NCBI RefSeq assembly: GCF_020886695.1
Contig: NZ_AP024485.1
Location: forward strand, 1,683,001 to 1,747,000
Direction: 5' to 3'
DNA from: Pseudodesulfovibrio sediminis
GTDB lineage: Bacteria; Desulfobacterota; Desulfovibrionia; Desulfovibrionales; Desulfovibrionaceae
DNA: 64,000 nt
Of the stretch, positions 14,113-56,738 are shown piece by piece (positions within the stretch are counted from its first letter, which is position 1; every line of letters starts with the position of its first letter). The position numbers and the translations under genes are program-made. The notes under the pieces were generated by a model. That model saw only the letters and a list, made by a program, of their open reading frames with translations, did no database searches and was not told where the DNA came from.

Positions 14113-14578
14113 TCCTTTTATTGAGAGGGCGGATTCGCTTTGCGAATCCGTAATTCATTGGTGCGTTGCCCTATGGGGCACCTACCGCGAGAGGTCTTTC
14201 CCAATTCAATGAAACTGTTTTTTACGATGTGCGCGCTACGCGGTGAGAATGCTATCCCAAATTATTCATACGTTTTTCGCCTTTACGGCGACCTGCTTTT
14301 TGCGAAGCGGCAAAAAGGAGGCAAAAAGCGCTTTGTTGTCTGTGAGCGAGGAAGCGCACCCAAGAGCCTGTAGGCGACTTCACTGCCCGACAGGATGTCT
14401 ATGATGATCAGACTCGGTCGGGCTGCGCTGCGTCGCCCGCGACAGGCTCTAAGGTTCGCTTCCGATTGCCCGTCGTTAAGGGAGATGCTCTTTTGATGTG
14501 GACGGCGTGGATTTCAGGCTGTCGGCAACTTAGTGGGCATCCTTTGATCTCGCCTGCAATCAGCTCAGATCGCCCTAG
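14113..14578. repeat. Gene-free stretch with structured repeat-like sequence
   Basis: No gene is seen. At about 14288-14325 a CTTTTTGC/GCAAAAAG hairpin resembles the A/T-run hairpins in the dispersed modules further along. From 14350 to 14463 there is a nested imperfect palindrome with four successive arm pairs: GGAAGCG/CGCTTCC, AGAGCCTGT/ACAGGCTCT, GGCGAC/GTCGCC and GCCCGAC/GTCGGGC. It could be a structured RNA or an extragenic palindromic repeat. Confidence 0.55.
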
Positions 14579-14870
14579 CTTAGCCCTGTTTGCAAGGCCT
14601 AGAAGCTGACAACGAAAGGACGGCGGCTCCGGTCAGGCAATACGAATGCAGCCACTCGCCCCGGCAAGTCACGGAAAGGGAGGTCCTCTACTTTTCCCGG
14701 CATGGAGCCGTCCCGAGTTGATCAGCTTCTCGCCGACAAACCTCGGGCGGGTACGCTAGTGCAAGGAGCTTTTTGCGTCTCTTTTTGCTCCTCAAAAAGA
14801 GACCGCCGCCCGCGAAGGGCATGGAAGGCCTTTGGGGCGCATGCCCCAAAAAACTGGCTCTCGCTCCAAA
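14579..14870 (+). repeat. Dispersed repeat module, copy A
   Basis: The first 181 bases (14579-14759) closely match 19504-19683 in the same orientation. Both begin cttagccctgtttgcaagg and end in cctcgggcgg plus gctag. Inside, AGAAGCTGACAAC near the left end is complementary to GTTGATCAGCTTCT near the right end, so the unit can fold back on itself. A separate hairpin, GTCTCTTTTTG/CAAAAAGAGAC, follows at about 14778-14804. No protein gene is supported. Confidence 0.7.
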
Positions 14871-15652: not shown

Positions 15653-17458
15653 TTAGTCTTCGTCGGCTTTGAGTACAGACAGGAAAGCTTCCTGCGGAAT
15701 TTCAACGTTGCCCATGCGGCGCATACGTTTCTTACCCTCTTTCTGCTTTTCCAACAATTTACGTTTACGCGTGATATCGCCGCCGTAACATTTGGCGGTG
15801 ACGTCCTTGCGGAACGGCGCATTGCGTTCCTTTGCCACAATCTTGTTGCCGATGGCGGCCTGAATGACCACCTCGAACATCTGACGTGGGATGCTTCGCT
15901 TGAGCTTGAGCGCCAGTGAGCGGCCTATGCGGGCGGCGTTCTCGCGATGCACGATGCAGGAGAATGCGTCCACAGGGTCGCCGTTGATCAGGATATCAAG
16001 GCGGACAAGATCAGCTTCGCGGTAGTCGATGACTTCGTAATCAAGGCTCGCATACCCCTTGGTGGAGGACTTGAGCTTGTCGAAGAAGTCATACATGACC
16101 TCGGCAAACGGAATCTCATAGGTGATGACCACCCGTTTCTCGGTCAGGTAGGCCATGTCCTTCTGAATGCCGCGTTTCTCCTCGCACAAGGCGAGCACCG
16201 CGCCGACGAATTCATTGGGAACATGCACTTCCAGCCGCACGAACGGCTCACGGATGCTGCCGATATTTGACGGGTCCGGCAACTTGCTCGGATTGTCGAT
16301 GGTCAGGATCTCGCCCTTGATATCCGACACCTCATAGATGACGGACGGGGCCGTGGTGATGAGCTTGGCCTCAAACTCACGCTCCAGCCGCTCCTGAATG
16401 ATCTCGATGTGCAGCAGGCCGAGAAAACCGCAACGGAAGCCGAAGCCCAAAGCCTGAGACGTTTCCGGCTCGTAGCTGAATGCCGCGTCGTTGAGCTGGA
16501 GTTTTTCCAGCGCGGCCTTGAGGGTTTCGTATTCCGACGGCTCCACGGGATAGAGACCCGAGAAGACCATGGGCTTGACCGGCTTGAAGCCGGGATACGG
16601 CTCTGTGACCGGGTTCGCGGCCAGAGTGATGGTGTCACCCACGGGCGCATCGCCCAGTTCCTTCATGGACGCACACAGAAATCCGACCTCGCCCGGCCCC
16701 ATGGCCTTGATATCCACGGCCTCGGGCATGAACGCACCCACGCGGGTGACTTCGAATTCCTTGCCCGTGGAGAATATCTTGATGCGATTGCCCTTCTTGA
16801 GCGTACCGTCAAGAATGCGGAACAGCACCACAACGCCCTGATACGAGTCGTACCAGGAATCGAAGATCAGCGCTTTGAGCGGTGCATCCGGGTCGCCCTC
16901 GGGCGGCGGCAGCAGATTGATGACCGCGTCGAGGACTTCCTGCACGTTCTTGCCGGTCTTGGCCGAAACCATGATCGGGTTGGAGCAGTCCAGGCCAATG
17001 ACCTCTTCGATCTCTCTGGAGATCATGTCCGGGTCGGCGCTGGGCAGGTCGATCTTGTTCAGGACAGGCACGACCTCAAGGTCGTTATCCATGGCCAGAT
17101 AGACGTTTGCCAACGTCTGGGCCTCGACACCCTGGGTGGAGTCAACCACCAGCAGCGCGCCCTCGCAGGCGGACAGCGACCGCGAAACTTCATAGCTGAA
17201 GTCCACATGGCCGGGTGTATCAATGAGGTTCAAAATATATTTCTGGCCGTCGGTATCGGTGTATGGAATGCGCACGGTCTGCGCCTTGATGGTGATACCG
17301 CGCTCCCGCTCCAGATCCATTTTATCCAGATACTGTTCTTTTCTCTCACGATCGCCGACCATGCCGGTGATTTCGAGAATGCGGTCCGCCAACGTCGACT
17401 TGCCGTGGTCGATGTGGGCGATGATGCTGAAATTGCGTATTTTATCGATCTTGCTCAT
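15653..17458 (-). CDS. lepA: Elongation factor 4 (LepA)
   Basis: A ribosome-associated translational GTPase of 601 residues, the usual length. GTP-binding motifs are [12 protein letters not shown] near residue 14, DTPGHVDF and NKIDLP. The EF-G-like domains and the unique C-terminal domain ([19 protein letters not shown]) are complete. It is co-directional with lepB. Its upstream region is taken up by an inverted repeat module and about 100 bases that must hold the promoter. Confidence 0.97.
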
Positions 17459-17693
17459 ATTTTCTTTTTGCTAGCGGCTATTACAGCCGGACACAGGATA
17501 AGACCCCCGCAATCGGGCGTTTCGGAACAGTCTTCTACGGCATTTGGAGTTGGTTGTCTAATATAGTTATAGGTGGCGGCTTGCGATAGCGGCCTAGGCG
17601 CTTCGAGCAGCGCGGCCTCGAAGAGTTGAGGGAGAAGAGTGAGATGGAAGCCGCCTTTGGCGGCGGGATTGTCTGGGATGCGGCTTCGCCGAG

Positions 17694-17917
17694 ATTCGTC
17701 GCTGGCGCGACTCCGGCTTTTTTTCTTGCCCTCCCGGCGGGGTCCGTTTTTTTGTTGGGGCAAAAAAAGGGACAAAAAAAAACCCCTTTCCGAGCGCCGC
17801 CGCCTCACTCCCAAAAGCAAGAATCTGATCGATTTCGCCTCCGCTCCACGAAACAGTCGCCAAAGAGGCTCCCGGTTTCGAAGAACCGCTCCGACAAAAT
17901 CGTCAGCTTCTAAGCTT
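17694..17917 (-). repeat. Dispersed repeat module, copy C (inverted, diverged)
   Basis: Read on the minus strand this block keeps the same order of parts as 19504-19790. The stretch 17694-17750 (ATTCGTCGCTGGCGCGACTC, then the T run and CCCTCCCGGCGGGG) is nearly the reverse complement of 19735-19788. The parts at 17817-17851 and 17901-17915 match the inner parts of that copy more loosely. A hairpin GTCC-T-run/A-run-GGAC lies at about 17750-17783. It occupies most of the 497 bases between lepA and the AT-rich gene. Confidence 0.65.
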
Positions 17918-17955
17918 TGGGGGGGATGGCTAGCAATTTACACAGTTAAGCATTA

Positions 17956-19243
17956 TCACCCAATTTTATAAATCAACTCCTCGTGATAATAGACAGAAAT
18001 GGGCCCATCTTCAGACACTTTTAAAGCGTTACCAAAAACAGATCCTGCGCATACTGCTGTAGACCGACCTCCACCGCCAGCATTTTTGCATCCAGCAGAC
18101 TTTGAGGCCAAAGAAGTGTCAACGATTACTGAAAAATCTATAATCCCCTCGAAATCATTTGTAAAAATCGTCATACCATCCGTCGTGAGTATTCTAAACA
18201 ATTCACCTGTCTCGCATAAACGATCAATAGAGGCCACAACGATACCACTTTCAACGGCCTGTAACATCTCCTTATCCTTCGAAACATGCCCAACCAGCAT
18301 TTCTTTAAAGCCTGGCTCATCATCATTCTCAGCAAATAATGCTGCAGTACCTTTCCTTATTTTTGATAATGAATAGAAAATACGCCATGGATCAACAACG
18401 CCCTTATCTAATCTTTCAATTATTGACCTGTTGACTGATTCAGTATCAATAAAATACCAACGTCCTTTTCTAAACAAAATTCTAAATTTATCATCGTAAA
18501 ATATCTCAATATCTGAAGAGCTTGTTATACCAATGTAAAAGTGAACATCATCAAGCTCTTTAATAAGAAACTCAATTCTTGCTCCAGACAATCTCTCAAA
18601 CACATTAAATTCATCATGTAATATATTTACATACCCGTGAATGTTAAGGCCTGCATCACAACAATAAAACGATTCTACACCATCAACATATCTGAAAAAA
18701 GCTGTATCACTTAATATTTTTTGAGTAAGGTGAACACTACTATCAAATGCAACTTTTTCGTACCTCATTTTATTAATTTGGGAATCTCCGGCGTTAAAGC
18801 ACTTACCTTTCCTAACAACCATTCCTGTTTTGACTTGTTCTCCTTCATATCTCTCAAAACTCAATCTTTTAAAATGCTGAATCAATGTATGAATATTAAG
18901 GAACTGACTCCTTGATATTGCAATATAACGAGAAATTGCTATATCGAACACAGAGGCCATAATAGATGTTTGTAAATATTGGTGTGCAACACCTCTTGAG
19001 CCAATTTTTTTATCTAAACTTACAAAGCTATCGAGAACTATCTTTGCAAATTTTTTTTCGTCTCTAGTAAAGTCTATCCCCCTTTCAAATAGAAGAACCT
19101 CTCCATTCCATTTTATTGCCCACTGCCCATCACTTCTAGGAAGAGGTTTATCCCATTTTTTATGTACTGAAATTTTTTTTGCAACCAAGAGCTATTTTCA
19201 ATTCGTCTAGAATATACAAGAACGCAGTTGTAGACATTGACAT
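17956..19243 (-). CDS. AT-rich gene for a DisA_N-like (diadenylate cyclase fold) protein, frameshifted at an A8 tract
   Basis: The long frame (17956-19188) has no good start: a stop lies two codons before its TTG. Reading from 19243 instead, an ATG with an AAGGA SD gives MSMSTTAFLYILDELKIALGC and meets eight A (19180-19173). Dropping one A joins it to the long frame, giving about 428 residues. The C-terminal part (long-frame residues 278-410) resembles DisA_N/diadenylate cyclase domains: RKGTAAL, a DGM in place of DGA, then GGGGRSTA and VSEDGPISVYYHEEL. The usual GTRHR catalytic loop is changed, so it may bind rather than make a nucleotide. The N-terminal half is not recognised. Line 18721-18780 has 18 G+C in 60, far below the neighbours, suggesting transfer. 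Similarity was judged by eye. Confidence 0.55.
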
Positions 19244-19356
19244 TTCCTTTTCGACAATATTGCTGAATAAATATTCACTTCTTAATATCATCAAAAAAGC
19301 TATTGATCAATGACTTAGCCTTCCCCACCCATTTAAGAAGTTCCAGAGGAGGTAAA

Positions 19357-19527
19357 ATGATCTTCAACGCAGAAAACCGATTCGACAACCGACTTTTTGC
19401 GAAGCAACAAACCCTCTTGATGTATCACGCGGGAATTTTCACCATAGAAACGCCTCATGGACAGCGTATGCTGCCGTATGTAATTTCGCTCAAATCGTAC
19501 AAACTTAGCCCTGTTTGCAAGGCTTAG
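19357..19527 (+). CDS. Small hypothetical ORF running into repeat copy B
   Basis: A 56-codon frame beginning MIFNAENRFDNRLFAKQQ with an excellent AGAGGAGG SD. It faces away from the AT-rich gene and its last eight or so codons lie in the dispersed repeat, so it may be the 5' remnant of a longer gene cut off by the repeat. I recognise no family. Apart from this ORF and the repeat copy that follows it, 19244-19882 holds nothing I can identify. Confidence 0.3.
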   Translation: MIFNAENRFDNRLFAKQQTLLMYHAGIFTIETPHGQRMLPYVISLKSYKLSPVCKA

Positions 19528-19790
19528 AAGCTGACAACGAGAGGGCGGCGGCTCCGGTCAGATGATACGGATGCTTTTTCTCAACCCGGCGGGTTGCGGA
19601 GAGAGAGGCCTCTACTTTTCCCGGCGTGGAGCCGTCCCGAGTTGATCAGCTTCTTGCCGTCAAACCTCGGGCGGTCGCGCTAGAAAGCCGCATTTTTTTG
19701 GTTCTTTTTTGGGGCGGCTCAGCCAAAAAAGAACCCCGCCGGGAGGGCAAAAAAAAAGCTGGAGTCGCGCCAGCGACGAATCTTGCCTTT
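19504..19790 (+). repeat. Dispersed repeat module, copy B
   Basis: The left 180 bases (19504-19683) match copy A in direct orientation. Next is a perfect 13-bp hairpin, GGTTCTTTTTTGG/CCAAAAAAGAACC, at about 19699-19735. The right end (about 19735-19788) is nearly the reverse complement of 17694-17750. Copies B and C thus face each other across the AT-rich gene. Confidence 0.7.
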
Positions 19791-19882
19791 ATTCTTCATT
19801 CTTCATTCTTCCTTTTCTCTTCCCCTCTTCAAAAAAACAGATAAACTAGACTCCCCCCTCCCTTATGCCTTAGTGACTTGAA

Positions 19883-20248
19883 ATGTTCAGACAAAAAGAA
19901 TGGCCCTTCATAGGCTCCTCCGGCACAACCTACACCTTCACCATATACCCCAAGAGTGCTGAACTGCCCGACGCAGGCGGCATCATCCTGCTCGCCTACA
20001 CCCACCCGCGCGGGCACCGCGCCGGATATCAGGCCAACATCCTGCATATCGGGCATGGCGTGGACCTGAGCGCGCCCCTCGACCAGCAGGCGAACCTTGA
20101 ATGCGCGGCCTCCGAATGCTGGAACTGCACATATGCGCTCATCGAACCTGACGAAAAAGCGCGCGTGGCGTGTGTCCACGATCTCCTGCAAAACCATATG
20201 CCTCCCTGCCAATCCAAGGGCGGACGCCTCGATCAACCCCCTGATTGA
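19883..20248 (+). CDS. Conserved-looking hypothetical protein
   Basis: A 121-residue cytoplasmic protein with no signal peptide or membrane segment. It has a compact beta-rich look (GTTYTFTIYPKSAELPDAGGIILLAYTHPRGHRAGY) and a cysteine cluster CAASECWNCTYAL, with further cysteines at ACVHDLL and PPCQ. The base composition is normal for the genome, unlike the island just before it. The SD before 19883 is weak. I do not recognise the family; I believe similar proteins occur in other Desulfovibrionales but cannot verify this here. Confidence 0.6.
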   Translation: MFRQKEWPFIGSSGTTYTFTIYPKSAELPDAGGIILLAYTHPRGHRAGYQANILHIGHGVDLSAPLDQQANLECAASECWNCTYALIEPDEKARVACVHDLLQNHMPPCQSKGGRLDQPPD

Positions 20249-20334
20249 AGCGGACGTTTCCACGCCACATAATTGACATCTTTGTCATTCGTTTTTTGGT
20301 TTTCCTTGGCCGCAAAACCCGATAGAAAGGGTAA

Positions 20335-21213
20335 ATGACCTCATACGATTTCAAAATGAAAACCCGCGCACTGACATTCGGCGTTCCCTGGAATGTCGCG
20401 CTGCTCACCTGCGGCTCGTTTCTCATCGCCTTTGCCATCAAGGCCGTGGCCGTGCCGCACGGCCTGCTTACCGGGGGAATGTCCGGTATCGCCCTGCTCT
20501 GCTATTACGCATTCGGCGGGCTGACCACGGGCCAGTGGTATCTGGTGCTCAACCTGCCCGTGTTCGTGCTCGGCTGGGTCTTTGTGAGCAAGCGATTCTT
20601 TTTCTACTCGCTCTACGGCATGTTCATCACCTCGGTCTTTATCGACATCATCCCGTGGACGGTGCCGATCAAGGATATCTGGCTGGCGGTGATCACCGGC
20701 GGCGGGCTGATGGGCGCGGGCGTGGGCATGGCCCTGCGATCGCTCGGCTCCACGGGCGGGTCGGACATACTGGCCGTCATCCTCAAAGAAAAATTCAACA
20801 TGTCGCTGGGGGCCTTCGAGTTCTGGTTCAACATGATCGGATTCGTGGCCGGTTTCATCTATCTGGACATGAACATCGTGCTGTACTCCATTGCCATGAC
20901 CTTTATCATCGCCATCGGCATCGAGTACGTGCTCGGCATGTTCTCGGAGCGAAAGATGGTCATGATCATCTCGGATCATCAGGCTGCCATCAACGCGGCC
21001 ATCCTCACGGACCTGGACCGGGGCGTGACCATCCTTGATGCGACCGGCGGATACACCGGCGACCCCAAAAAGGTCATCATGACCATGATCTCTTCCATGC
21101 AGCTCAAGGAGTTGGAGGAGTTGGTCTACACCATCGACCCAGAGGCGTTTTTCATCATGGGCTCGGGCTTCCACGTTCAGGGCCAGGGATTCTCCAACAG
21201 GAAGGTCTACTAG
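20335..21213 (+). CDS. YitT family membrane protein (DUF161 plus DUF2179)
   Basis: A 292-residue inner-membrane protein with about five to six hydrophobic helices in the first 200 residues, including GLLTGGMSGIALLCYY and LRSLGSTGGSDILAVIL, the hallmark loops of the YitT/DUF161 family. The soluble C terminus, from about residue 205, is a DUF2179-like domain (RGVTILDATGGYTGDPKKVIMTMIS). The function of the family is not settled. The stop is directly followed by the ATG of the SAM hydrolase gene, so the two are translationally linked, and cobS follows in turn. Confidence 0.85.
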   Translation: MTSYDFKMKTRALTFGVPWNVALLTCGSFLIAFAIKAVAVPHGLLTGGMSGIALLCYYAFGGLTTGQWYLVLNLPVFVLGWVFVSKRFFFYSLYGMFITSVFIDIIPWTVPIKDIWLAVITGGGLMGAGVGMALRSLGSTGGSDILAVILKEKFNMSLGAFEFWFNMIGFVAGFIYLDMNIVLYSIAMTFIIAIGIEYVLGMFSERKMVMIISDHQAAINAAILTDLDRGVTILDATGGYTGDPKKVIMTMISSMQLKELEELVYTIDPEAFFIMGSGFHVQGQGFSNRKVY

Positions 21214-22035
21214 ATGCTCTCCGCTTTCAAGAAAGAGACGCCAGCATCCCGCACCATCGGACTCATCACTGATTTCGGCCTCCACGACCCCTATGTGGGC
21301 CAGATGAAAGGCGTCTTTGCCAAGAAGGCCCCTGTCTGCAATGTCATAGACATCTCCCACGACGTGGAGCCCTACAACGTGGCGCAGGCCGGATTCTTTT
21401 TGGCCGCCAGCTACGAACATTTTCCCAAGGACGCGGTCATTCTGGCCGTGGTCGACCCCGGCGTGGGCACGGACCGCAAGATCGCCTGCCTCGAAGTCGG
21501 CGACCGCCTGCTGGTGGCCCCGGACAACGGCCTCCTTGCCCTGGCGCTCAAGTATGCCTGGGACAATGTCCGCTGCTTTGATCTCTCCCGCGCCATGGAC
21601 GCGCCAAAGAAGATCTCCCACACCTTTCATGGCCGGGACGTGTTTGCGCCTCTGGCCGCATGGCTCGCTCTGGGCGGCAAGCCGGAGTCTCTGGGCGAGG
21701 AAATGCCGGCGGAGGAGCTGGTATCCCTGCCCTGGGCCCATCCGAACGTGACCCCCAATCGGGCGCGCGGCCATGTGCTGCACATCGACCGGTTCGGCAA
21801 CTGCGTGCTCAACCTCGAAGGGGGCTGCCTGGGCAATCACGAGACCATCCGCATGGTGTCCCCGGCCGGTGGCATCCTTGCCTATGTCAAATCCTACGCG
21901 GCCATGCCCGAAGGCGAACCCGGTCTGCTCGAAGGCAGTCAGGGATTCCTTGAAATCGCCGTCAACCAACGCTCTGCGGCCAAACGCTTCGGCCTGTCCA
22001 TGGGCGACGCAATAGAACTCTCCTGGGAGGGGTGA
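21214..22035 (+). CDS. SAM hydrolase / SAM-dependent halogenase family protein (DUF62)
   Basis: A 273-residue protein of the DUF62 family, whose characterised members hydrolyse S-adenosylmethionine to adenosine and methionine; a minority are halogenases. Landmarks are LITDFGLHDPYVGQMKG at the N terminus, VIDISHDVEPYNV, VVDPGVGTDRK, and the FHGRDVFAPLAAWLALG segment carrying the conserved His. The absence of any biosynthetic cluster favours hydrolase over halogenase. It abuts the YitT gene and overlaps cobS by one base. Confidence 0.88.
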   Translation: MLSAFKKETPASRTIGLITDFGLHDPYVGQMKGVFAKKAPVCNVIDISHDVEPYNVAQAGFFLAASYEHFPKDAVILAVVDPGVGTDRKIACLEVGDRLLVAPDNGLLALALKYAWDNVRCFDLSRAMDAPKKISHTFHGRDVFAPLAAWLALGGKPESLGEEMPAEELVSLPWAHPNVTPNRARGHVLHIDRFGNCVLNLEGGCLGNHETIRMVSPAGGILAYVKSYAAMPEGEPGLLEGSQGFLEIAVNQRSAAKRFGLSMGDAIELSWEG

Positions 22036-22760
22036 TGCTTTTTTTCGACACACTCGGCTTTCTGACCCGTCTGGCCCCGGCCCGAGTCATCTCTGAGGAA
22101 GACATGAACAAGTGCATGCGCTACATGGCCCCGGTCGGAGCGCTGCTCGGCGCGGTGGTGGTGCTCCCCTTTGCCCTCGGCCTGCTCAATACCGCACCGT
22201 GGGTGCAGGCATGGCTCATGGTCGGCCTGTCCATCATCCTGACGCGGGGGCTGCATCTGGACGGTCTGGCCGACATCTGTGACGCGGTCACCACCCACAC
22301 CGATCCGACCCTGTTCTGGAAGGTGGTCAAGGACAGCCGGTCCGGCGCGTTCGGCGTCATCGGCCTGATCATGGCTCTGGGCGGCGAGGTCATTCTGTTT
22401 CACGAAATGGCGCGGGTGGAAGCGTATCCGGCCATCATCTGGGCGTTCATTCTCGGACGCAGCGGCGCGGTCTGGCTCGGCTATCATGTGCGCCATCTGG
22501 TGCGCTCCGGCCTGGGCAAACTCTACATCGACGGCGCCACTCTGGGCGTGGCACTGGCCACCGCGCTATTCTCTTTTGTTGCAGGCATCGTGCTGGTCGG
22601 GCTGACCGGCGCCATAGCCGGAACCATCGTTGTGTCGCTGGCGTTGCTTGCCCTGTACAGATTGGCCGTCAAGGTCGAGGGAGCCAACGGCGATTTCCTG
22701 GGCTGCGCGGTCATAGTCGGCGAGATCGCCGCCGGTATCGGTTTTGTCCTCACCATGTAG
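22035..22760 (+). CDS. cobS: Adenosylcobinamide-GDP ribazoletransferase (cobalamin synthase)
   Basis: An inner-membrane enzyme joining alpha-ribazole to adenosylcobinamide-GDP, the last assembly step of the cobalamin lower-loop pathway. It has 241 residues, with several membrane helices. The CobS signature is RGLHLDGLADICDA, followed by VKDSRSGAFGVIGLI and LGRSGAVWLGY. The ATG at 22035 shares its A with the TGA of the preceding gene. No other cobalamin genes are nearby and I see no B12 riboswitch, so this gene is detached from the main pathway. Confidence 0.92.
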   Translation: MLFFDTLGFLTRLAPARVISEEDMNKCMRYMAPVGALLGAVVVLPFALGLLNTAPWVQAWLMVGLSIILTRGLHLDGLADICDAVTTHTDPTLFWKVVKDSRSGAFGVIGLIMALGGEVILFHEMARVEAYPAIIWAFILGRSGAVWLGYHVRHLVRSGLGKLYIDGATLGVALATALFSFVAGIVLVGLTGAIAGTIVVSLALLALYRLAVKVEGANGDFLGCAVIVGEIAAGIGFVLTM

Positions 22761-28928: not shown

Positions 28929-30329
28929 TCAATCTCGACCGCTCGCGCCAAACTCCTTGAGAAGCGCGAGTGTTTCTTTTGCCAGTTGATTGATGACGGA
29001 AGGGGTGGCCTTACATTGCTCAAAATTCTGCACCAATCCGGTGAGCATGTCCGGTGAAAAATTGTCCGGGTACTCCGAAAGCACAGTACGCATTATTTTT
29101 ACCCACCGTTCTGGATCTGCCGACTGTGAAGCAATAAAGGCATGCTCATACAACCGAGCACATTCTTTCGGCCCGCACACGGCTTCGCCCAGAGGTTTGG
29201 AATCAAAGAGCACGGCCAACGTTTCATCTACAGCCCATGGATTGGCATACAGCCTCGTTTTCATGCCTACACCAGGAATCATTTTTCCATTGAGATATGG
29301 CAGGATAAAACAATACGCCTGAGACATCATGTATGACAGCCGGGGGAGATTCTGATGAAAACGCCCGGATTCAAGTTCAATGATAACCGGCTTGTTTGAG
29401 AACATGACGTTGCAAAAAGCCGAGCCTTCTTCCCCGGCAATGACTTCAGCACCCGCAACCATGGCCACCTGCTCGCCAAAGGAATGCTCCTGTGGATGGA
29501 TGATCTCAAAGCCATGACCTGCAAACAGAGCCTCTATTTGGGCGGCGTTGATCAGGTTGCGTCCTTTGAACCGACTTCGGCTCAAGAAAATTCGTTTGGG
29601 CGTCTGAGCAGACGTATCAATAAAAGCGTCCCTGATCCGGTCGGCGATTGCAACGTATTCGGGGTGATACCCTTGCGTGTACCAGTTGAGTGCCGTAGGG
29701 CAGATGACATCGTCAAAAACCGTATCTTCAGTAATAAAATGAATCTGGGACCGATCAATGCCGAACAGGTTCATTATGGACTCCACAAACCGAGTGGAAC
29801 GGGTGTCAGTGTCCCATGCTGCGATGGAAGCAGGGGTAGCATGAAAGACGTATTTCACATCCCTGCCGCGCAGTTCATCACTCAACCAGAAACGGGAAAC
29901 AACCTCTGAAAGGAAATGACCGAAATACGGCATGAGCATGCCGAGATACACGCAGGCCCCGCCCATCCTGACCGGATTGACGTATTCGTAGGGAAGCCGG
30001 GAGGAATCCTCCGAACGCTGAAGCAGATCGTGGAGTAGCCGCCCTTCACTGGAATGAATATACATAATTTCAGGCCAACGTCCGGGGCGACGTACCAGCG
30101 GAGACATGACAGCGTTGTAAAGCCGGTACACCCGTCGAGGCGGGGAGAAGAATTTGCCTCTGGTATTCTTGCAGACGGTGCTAGCAAAAAGACTTGTAGG
30201 AACATTGGAAAAAAAACGGTCGGAATCAATGGGAACGTATTTCCCTTTTTCCAGCTCCACCACTACACCTTCCCCGGTGCGGTCAACGCGGTTCAGCAGG
30301 CTCTGAATATCCGGCAAGTTTTCGATCAT
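28929..30329 (-). CDS. Glycosyltransferase family 61-like protein (DUF563)
   Basis: A 466-residue cytoplasmic protein. The region from about residue 110 resembles DUF563/GT61 transferases: YFGHFLSEVVSRFWL, RIFLSRSRFKGRNLINAAQIE and the signature AGEEGSAFCNVMFS. The start at 30329 (MIENLPDIQ) is chosen because the upstream frame overlaps the methyltransferase gene; GTG 30341 is an alternative and the SD is poor. It lies 25 bases downstream of the methyltransferase gene. It probably acts on a surface polysaccharide or a glycosylated protein; the acceptor is unknown. Confidence 0.75.
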   Translation of the reverse strand: MIENLPDIQSLLNRVDRTGEGVVVELEKGKYVPIDSDRFFSNVPTSLFASTVCKNTRGKFFSPPRRVYRLYNAVMSPLVRRPGRWPEIMYIHSSEGRLLHDLLQRSEDSSRLPYEYVNPVRMGGACVYLGMLMPYFGHFLSEVVSRFWLSDELRGRDVKYVFHATPASIAAWDTDTRSTRFVESIMNLFGIDRSQIHFITEDTVFDDVICPTALNWYTQGYHPEYVAIADRIRDAFIDTSAQTPKRIFLSRSRFKGRNLINAAQIEALFAGHGFEIIHPQEHSFGEQVAMVAGAEVIAGEEGSAFCNVMFSNKPVIIELESGRFHQNLPRLSYMMSQAYCFILPYLNGKMIPGVGMKTRLYANPWAVDETLAVLFDSKPLGEAVCGPKECARLYEHAFIASQSADPERWVKIMRTVLSEYPDNFSPDMLTGLVQNFEQCKATPSVINQLAKETLALLKEFGASGRD

Positions 30330-54222: not shown

Positions 54223-54290
54223 GACAGAGCTGTATCCACTCCTCGCTTGACGAACCCTGAACCCGACACGCCCCCCCCCGGCGAGCCTAC

Positions 54291-54848
54291 CTATTTGCCT
54301 GCGGCCAAAAGCTCCTGACGGGTGAAAATGGAACTGAGCTCAAGCCCGGCTTCCTTCAACTTTTCACGTCCGCCCTCTTCTCGATCCAGCACAGCCAGTA
54401 CGCCCACGATCTCCAGGCCTGCATCCCGCACGCGCTGGGCTGCCGTGATCAGCGTACCACCTGTTGTGCACACGTCCTCAAGCAGAACGACCTTGTCCCC
54501 ATCACTGAAGTTGGCCAACCCTTCAAGATACTGATCGGTTCCGTGTCCCTTGGACTTCTTGCGAATGATGAATCCCGGCAAAGGCCGCCCTTCCAGGTGG
54601 GACACAACGGTCACCGCCGTGATCAGGGGGTCTGCGCCAAGGGTCATACCGCCCACGCCGTGCACATCAAATTCCTTGAGCATCTCGAAGAAAAGACGCC
54701 CGATGAGGTAGCCGCCTTCGGCATGCAAAGCGGTCTGCTTGCAGTCGAAGTAATATTCACTTTTCTTGCCGGAAGTCAGTGTAAAATCTCCCTCTTTGTA
54801 CGAGAGGTTCAGGAGAAGTCTGGCAAGTTTTGTTTTCAATTCCATCAT
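54291..54848 (-). CDS. pyrE: Orotate phosphoribosyltransferase
   Basis: Converts orotate and PRPP to OMP in pyrimidine synthesis. It has 185 residues. The PRPP-binding motif is VVLLEDVCTTGGTL, preceded by FTLTSGKKSEYYFDCKQ and GMTLGADPLITAV. It lies 2 bases after purB, so pyrimidine and purine genes are coupled here. Confidence 0.94.
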   Translation of the reverse strand: MMELKTKLARLLLNLSYKEGDFTLTSGKKSEYYFDCKQTALHAEGGYLIGRLFFEMLKEFDVHGVGGMTLGADPLITAVTVVSHLEGRPLPGFIIRKKSKGHGTDQYLEGLANFSDGDKVVLLEDVCTTGGTLITAAQRVRDAGLEIVGVLAVLDREEGGREKLKEAGLELSSIFTRQELLAAGK

Positions 54849-56277: not shown

Positions 56278-56592
56278 TTAAGACGCGGAGCCTGCGCTTG
56301 AGGTGTCCGACTGTGCAGGACACTTGGATGCAGGAGCCGAGTCGGCCTTGGCCGAACTCTCACCGCCGCTTTCAGCAGGCTTTTGCGCTTCGCCGGGAGT
56401 ACTCCCGCTCTTTGCTCCACCATATCCGTCGGCATACCAGCCCCCCCCCTTCAAATGAAAGGAAGAATGGGAGATGAGCCGTTTGGACTCACTCCCGCAC
56501 TCGGGACATTCCATACTCTGTTCTTCAAAACCGGACTGCCATTCCTCGAAAATGGTCTGACAGGCCTGACATTGATACTCGTAAATGGGCAT
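56278..56592 (-). CDS. FmdB-family zinc-ribbon protein
   Basis: A 104-residue protein. The FmdB/CxxC_CxxC zinc ribbon is at the start (MPIYEYQCQACQTIFEEWQ, then MECPECGSES), followed by a glycine-rich stretch and a low-complexity Ser/Ala/Glu tail ending in CPAQSDTSSAGSAS. The family is widespread and regulatory in some cases, but the function is unknown here. I start at 56592; the open frame to 56685 lacks resemblance. The promoter lies between this gene and the small basic ORF. Confidence 0.85.
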   Translation of the reverse strand: MPIYEYQCQACQTIFEEWQSGFEEQSMECPECGSESKRLISHSSFHLKGGGWYADGYGGAKSGSTPGEAQKPAESGGESSAKADSAPASKCPAQSDTSSAGSAS

Positions 56593-56738
56593 GACGGGAA
56601 ACTCTCTTGATGCAAAGGAAAAACTGTTCAAAGTCGTCAACTGCAAGGCGCAAGAAAAATCCAAGGCCGACGCGTGTAATGCCACACGAGGATTTGGATT
56701 TCTTGCATCGCCACAGAAGGCGTGCTCAGGACAATGTG

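Follow-up and report, generated by a model that had tools for sequence, protein, structure and literature searches.

The window, a stretch of 64,000 nucleotides (positions 1683001-1747000 of a single-contig 3.76-Mb genome; assembly completeness 100), carries a gene whose product is best explained as a defence-associated, probably nucleotide-sensing protein with a diadenylate cyclase (DAC) fold, and which would belong, as a transferred single-gene unit, to the accessory (defence) gene pool. Our confidence in this reading is evenly balanced. The gene is split for real, its frame being broken relative to a conserved protein. The long open frame (17956..19188, minus strand) runs for 410 codons from a TTG with no internal stops, and holds the whole protein except about the first 20 residues.

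The C-terminal DAC fold and its family

The window protein alone found no matches in PADLOC (0 families at E <= 1), NCBIfam, Pfam or the PDB, and nothing in genome contigs, in plasmids and phages (by tblastn) or in viral contigs; a PHROG search gave one weak match (E 0.12). A profile built from the window protein and three relatives (A1) was searched across 395 genomes of the phylum, giving matches at E <= 0.001 in 40 of them; among the 41 rows obtained, 19 are strong, with E values no higher than 3.3e-16. Twenty of the 22 weak rows are restricted to about the last 70 columns, and one of the two others, L056, presumably comes from a TrkA-type protein, by its look. Eight of those 20 weak rows were placed in A3, a set of 14 canonical diadenylate cyclases, and all eight carry DGA and GxRH, as true cyclases do.

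When the 20-row family alignment (A2) was compared with A3 by hhalign, the two matched with a probability of 95.2 and E 2.7e-8, and the C-terminal half alone matched canonical DACs with E 3.8e-8 over 122 columns. Of the 20 members, 12 match the DAC family PF02457 at E <= 1 (best 8.2e-5), and the window protein itself has 0 matches to it; the family profile found nothing in the PDB. The AF2 model of the window protein (mean pLDDT 79.5, pTM 0.78) returned DisA, CdaA or CdaM in the first 35 rows of a Foldseek search, five of them at E <= 0.001 and the lower rows being noise. In VIA, model residues 250-409 align with 9y9y_H with Z 13.5 and rmsd 2.8 over 128 aligned residues. Of the 41 VIA rows shown, 39 are, by title or by our assignment, DisA, CdaA, DacA, DacM, CdaM or other diadenylate cyclases, and one is unrelated (Z 3.4); 2fb5, whose row is titled hypothetical membrane protein, we take to be a DAC. 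By profile comparison and predicted structure, residues 250-410 (17959..18441, minus strand) are thus assigned a DAC (DisA_N) fold. The original prediction had proposed a DisA_N-like C-terminus with a changed RHR loop, to be checked by structure prediction, and both parts of it are upheld by the family-level comparison, the modelled fold and the motifs described below, the window protein alone having no Pfam match.

In the long frame, about residues 18-249 (18442..19137, minus strand) make up the N-terminal module, which, as delimited by the AF2 model and a Pfam scan, is predicted to contain strands, helices within residues 42-110 and, after these, a mixed alpha/beta region; in none of 20 members did a Pfam family besides DAC reach E < 0.01. 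Within residues 105-257 (18418-18876), the strand order suggests a degenerate second DAC half, and the likeness of FYIGITSSSDIEIFYDDKFRI and ALKVSEDGPISVYYHEELIY also suggests an internal duplication; hhalign of this putative second half gave only E 0.01 against the C-terminal half and E 0.012 against DACs.

The DAC motifs of the window protein are DG337-338, GGR373-375 and K390-V-S-x-D-G395. Active cyclases have DGA and GxRHR, and in the window protein DG is kept with M in the third position (DG[M/L/A/I/C] in the family), while RHR is replaced by R-S-T (R-x-x in the family). All 20 A2 rows, and likewise all 96 rows of a larger set, lack a His at the RHR position. The invariant columns of A2 are D337, G338, G373, K390, S392, D394 and G395, the Lys before V-S being present in 20 of 20 rows. 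Since 76 further rows were picked by the pattern Gx[VGT][IL]KVS[EQN]DG, so that their K, S, D and G are uninformative, this invariance is a property of the 20 A2 rows; a member found later, L220, has a variant ending in KISADG. In a study of Leptospira CdaA, activity was abolished when Ala replaced the Asp of DGA or an Arg of GxRHRxA (PMC12974146). Because these mutants are inactive, a loss of catalysis or an altered product is likely in the family, by analogy.

Acquisition and gene neighbourhoods

Counted from 19237, the gene has a GC content of 0.356, against 0.556 for the window. In the taxonomic family, members are found in 17 of 288 genomes (19 loci), one of these genomes belonging to the window's genus; no member was found in the other genomes of the genus (G001-G035). 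On this low GC and patchy spread, the window gene is judged to be foreign and horizontally acquired. The surroundings were read for 16 of the 19 family loci and for L006, L192 and L193, which lie outside the family, 19 in all; setting aside the four g40 loci (L187, L188, L189, L194) leaves 15 loci read in the window's branch. Eleven of these 15 have a gene whose GC is below that of its flanks by 0.10 or more, a drop seen in none of 69 mostly Geobacterales loci and in none of the four g40 loci. The 69 loci, which are those of the best 80 of 122 pattern-found relatives that have a full motif-bearing ORF after an overlap filter, have a mean gene GC of 0.562 and flanks of 0.548. A conserved operon partner among them was considered and rejected, as the best neighbour cluster covers only 14 of the 69. 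A transposase-like ORF, so named from the look of its sequence and presumably of that type, lies beside one homologue. The viral contig L195 (IMGVR_UViG_3300011666_000003) has a 511-residue open frame that is a relative over 297 columns (E 1.3e-14); the relationship extends through the DAC part into the greater part of the N-terminal module, and the frame adjoins an ORF that we take to be integrase-like.

Six of the 15 branch loci have a defence neighbour or a hotspot position: the window, L190, L214, L220, L006 and L216. In L190 and L214, which belong to two genera, the start of the gene overlaps the end of hsdM by 13 bp; hsdS and hsdR lie 1.5 kb further on in L190, and a second type I methyltransferase follows the gene directly in L214. 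The L006 locus holds JetC and JetD (Wadjet) together with HsdR, and in L216 the gene abuts a PDC-S20 gene. In L220 (9217-18108), an AT-rich member lies downstream of genes for Vsr, a cytosine methylase, MzaE and MzaC, and by its sequence context appears to stand at the edge of an Mza defence locus. In the other nine (L005, L007, L191, L192, L193, L215, L217, L218, L219), inspected mostly by eye, no defence neighbour was seen; L007 has an integrase-like ORF, in L191 an isolated cytosine methylase lies at a distance of about 6 kb, and the Fic/Doc-like ORF of L219 gave weak PADLOC matches only. In L219 (8613-11476), from another genus, the member adjoins genes that presumably are CobS-like and SAM-hydrolase-like, the two kinds of gene that also follow yitT in the window (21214-22760); this pairing may be due either to chance or to a common hotspot. 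The four g40 members, in turn, are located between a SpoIIE-type phosphatase (by Pfam in L188, by likeness in the three others) and a gene that we take to be rpoB-like.

The hotspot position of the window gene is the interval 17459-20334, bordered by lepA (15653..17458, minus strand) and a gene for a YitT-like membrane protein (20335..21213, plus strand), both names being our assignments, made from the protein sequence in the case of lepA. Both genes are present in all 36 searched genomes of the genus, and in 14 of the 36 they are at most 8 kb apart, with a spacing of 1.2 to 7.7 kb; the intervals of these 14 genomes were read, that is, 13 (L138-L150) besides the window. Cargo with a GC content of at most 0.37 is present in five of the 14 intervals, and the window gene is one such case. 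The AT-rich cargo of the other four is an OLD/GajA-type ATPase-TOPRIM gene in L143 (E 4.1e-56), a dGTPase gene in L144 (E 2.3e-63), a GmrSD_N/NsnA-type gene (NsnA/PD-T4-2, E 7.7e-60) with a HEPN gene in L145, and a SIR2-nSTAND gene in L149 (ThsA, E 1.4e-6). The remaining nine intervals have GC-rich genes or little content. A HipA-type protein is encoded in the L146 interval (Pfam; likeness by eye in two more) and a sensor kinase in that of L147 (Pfam; similar ORFs elsewhere by eye). A protein common in the relatives' interval, presumably of PocR type, was not found in the window genome, in a search without a positive control. The lepA-yitT interval is a variable site of the genus and a probable exchange site, with defence-type cargo in four genomes besides that of the window, and the defence-type context suggested by the original prediction is borne out both by these four intervals and by those relatives that lie beside defence genes.

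Repeats are also associated with the interval. At the AT-rich boundaries lie the two arms of an 18-bp inverted repeat (17902..17919, plus strand; 19518..19535, minus strand), which is part of a dispersed, GC-rich intergenic repeat of about 190 bp. A sequence search placed one copy of it at 19488..19683, with further window copies at 14563-14759 and 17691-17921. The 313-bp query 19488-19800 was found at 19 places in the genome, itself included, and the 18-bp motif, at two mismatches or fewer, at 17 places, against 0 for the reversed control. The AT-rich cargo lies between inverted repeat copies in the window, L143, L144 and L145; the L149 cargo has no flanking copies, and L146 has copies without AT-rich cargo.

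Proposed function and known systems

The proposed model is that of a protein of about 425 residues, in which an N-terminal module that carries the output would be followed by the C-terminal DAC (DisA_N) fold. The latter would work as a sensor, or else as an altered cyclase, with ATP or a nucleotide messenger as its ligand; when phages attack, it would set the state of the N-terminal module, either on its own or next to a system of the restriction type. Nucleotide binding is proposed because the protein retains the fold, DG, one Arg and the Ser, and sensing is preferred to c-di-AMP synthesis because the His and the second Arg are gone and the Lys is fixed; the defence role is suggested by the gene neighbourhoods.

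The main rival holds that this is a signalling protein of general physiology, a DAC-fold sensor of a messenger or of ATP that has merely been transferred and has no defence role, which we consider rather unlikely. It would account for the many intact members of ordinary GC, mostly Geobacterales, that have no conserved partners and look like ordinary signalling proteins, and for the g40 members that adjoin a SpoIIE/HATPase phosphatase. It fits less well with the window's branch, which is mostly AT-rich and patchy, and in which 6 of the 15 loci read are in restriction, Mza, Wadjet, PDC-S20 or hotspot contexts. Against the defence reading, in turn, PADLOC, NCBIfam and Pfam gave no match to the window protein itself, and the same count means that many relatives have no such context. 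A more specific form of the defence reading, which we regard as doubtful, is that of a new phage-defence component: a DAC-fold protein lacking the RHR His and having an invariant Lys, which would sense or make a nucleotide other than c-di-AMP, would be coupled to type I restriction (its start lying inside the end of hsdM), and would also move alone through defence hotspots and viruses.

The likeness to DisA and CdaA (PF02457) comprises the C-terminal 160-residue fold, the D and G of DGA, one Arg of GxRHR, and the Ser and Gly of the last motif. The family differs from them by the missing RHR His, the invariant Lys before V-S, DG[M/L/A/I/C] in place of DGA, and a distinct N-terminal module with no Pfam match. 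In DisA, the DAC domain is followed by a C-terminal helix-hairpin-helix DNA-binding part; the window protein, which has no Pfam match, ends with the DAC fold at residue 410 and has no domain after it. In a literature search, the names 'DACNG', 'DACNH' and 'DACNK' did not occur among the matches listed, and no paper was found for 'DACNV'.

A role of DAC-superfamily proteins in phage defence has been shown only recently, with DS-2 (PMC13092281). DS-2, found by DefensePredictor, is a CBASS with an accessory diadenylate cyclase that is needed for phage defence: protection was lost with either of two mutations at residues predicted to be catalytic, and 15 of 30 homologues lay beside CBASS (PMC13092281). 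Like DS-2, the present family would link a DAC-superfamily protein to phage defence; it differs from DS-2 in motif, N-terminus and partners. NF053872 (DS2_3_antiphage), which by inference is the DAC of DS-2, touches the DAC part weakly in 3 of 9 members (E 0.014, 0.15 and 0.21), the similarity being limited to a short stretch of it; against a cut-off of 630 bits, the window protein has 0 matches and the best of the nine members reaches 13.8 bits. Among the neighbours of the window gene, which were identified by eye, none was recognised as a phospholipase or CD-NTase gene. The PrrC/RloC type exemplifies accessory genes located within type I restriction operons, and the relatives in two genera resemble it by starting inside the end of hsdM, with the 13-bp overlap. 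The difference is that no Pfam domain of that type is found in 20 members, and that the window copy has, by eye, no adjoining hsd genes. If the more specific form of the defence reading were true, it would be a second, differently built route for DAC-superfamily proteins in phage defence besides DS-2. The family offers a directly testable protein, and the lepA-yitT site a short list of further defence candidates.

The displaced N-terminus and the frame break

TTG 19188, the first start codon of the long frame, has no evident Shine-Dalgarno sequence. Upstream, a displaced N-terminal peptide of 19 codons (19181..19237, minus strand) is read in another frame from ATG 19237, and stops shortly beyond a run of eight A (A8; 19173..19180, minus strand), which is the point where the two frames part. 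A Shine-Dalgarno-like AAGGA (19245..19249, minus strand) is inferred from the sequence 7 nt before ATG 19237, its spacing to ATG 19243 being 1 nt only, so that ATG 19237 is the likelier start. The original prediction had described the 410-codon frame without a good start, the splitting eight-A run at 19180-19173 and an upstream ATG with a Shine-Dalgarno sequence in another frame, and these points stand; the position that it gave for the ATG, 19243, does not, since the second ATG, 19237, is better placed from AAGGA.

The displaced peptide is homologous to the N-termini of relatives and in register with them. L002, an intact homologue of 427 aa, is identical to the window long frame at 185 of 396 positions (47%), and L215, another among the closest full-length relatives, at 180 of 396. 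Both carry, before the part that they have in common with the long frame, the segment that the window has out of frame. The score of the window peptide, YILDELKIALGC, against YTLDEISEALGC of L215 was reached by 1 of 20000 shuffles, and that against FVLNRLGTALGC of L002 by 4 of 20000; in both comparisons, none of 3458 window peptides reached it. More broadly, the 19-aa peptide aligns without gaps, residue 1 on residue 1, to the N-termini of 56 homologues, namely those among 77 collected rows whose predicted protein starts with MP and has 415-440 residues. The mean BLOSUM62 score is 10.8, a value attained in 16 of 5000 shuffles, whose mean is -12.2, and offset 0 is the sole positive one of 12. 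This comparison with homologues of intact N terminus, which had been proposed together with the split, also indicates that the homologues do not start at the TTG and extend to the out-of-frame segment. Given the in-register homology of the displaced peptide to intact N-termini, the split is a true one, and a misread start as the cause of the apparent break is ruled out. As the window copy is cut at A8 after its first 19 codons, little or no full-length protein would be expected from it.

The rest of the gene is well conserved. Compared with 80 homologues, mostly from Geobacterales, the window has a mean identity of 0.271 and the intact L002 one of 0.273, the window being lower in 52 of the 80 comparisons, a small deficit that could reflect early decay. 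Of 150 conserved columns, 62 are kept by both, 10 by the window alone, 15 by L002 alone and 63 by neither; 21 of 24 near-invariant family columns are kept in the window, and two of its three losses are common to L002. Because the long frame, judged by its sequence, has no clear sign of decay, the cut would be recent, tolerated or an assembly error.

A sequencing or assembly error, by which the tract would have another length in the living cell and the gene would be intact, is a possibility that we hold tentatively. Homopolymers are the usual place for such errors, the sequence 3' of the tract is well kept, and the other 19 rows of A2 all have open frames. Against an error, the eight-A/T runs at 2669 and 19051 are read in frame inside long ORFs of the window (likewise that at 30209, in an ORF of uncertain reality), and the assembly is a single contig with a completeness of 100; both points are weak either way. 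A true and recent loss-of-function mutation, which would make the gene a young pseudogene of a costly accessory gene, is held just as tentatively. A frame break amid good conservation elsewhere would be expected of it, as would an identity to homologues slightly below that of L002; against it stands the fact that in a single genome an error looks the same as a mutation.

The phase variability that the original prediction had proposed for the tract is reduced to a bare possibility, because A-tracts are neither in clear excess nor conserved in position among relatives. The gene has a second run of eight A, in frame (19051..19058, minus strand), and two such runs or more arose in 222 of 2000 trials when the long frame was shuffled synonymously and in 134 of 2000 when the gene was simulated by a first-order Markov model, so that the number of tracts is not clearly above chance expectation. 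In six AT-rich members, all four runs of eight or more lie within the first 200 bases; protein-preserving shuffles also place runs early, 76 of 1000 reaching four (pooled over the six), which means that the protein sequence itself favours the early position. The idea of a selected early A-tract was dropped on these grounds. Early tracts, A8-A9 in L033 and L034 and also present in L215 (outside the six-member set), are in frame, and L002 has no run of seven or more. A contingency switch, or transcriptional slippage at A8 yielding some full-length protein, is therefore improbable, the long A-tract near the gene start and the early tracts of AT-rich L033, L034 and L215 speaking for it and the shuffles, the in-frame reading of those tracts and the tract-free L002 against it.

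An Rfam search of the window gene region found nothing, and a promoter scan was near chance (6 found, 4.6 expected), with 0 terminators. Other long homopolymers occur in the window: a run of nine C lies at 56441, inside the short ORF 56278-56685, and another at 54271, just outside the ORF 54291-54848.
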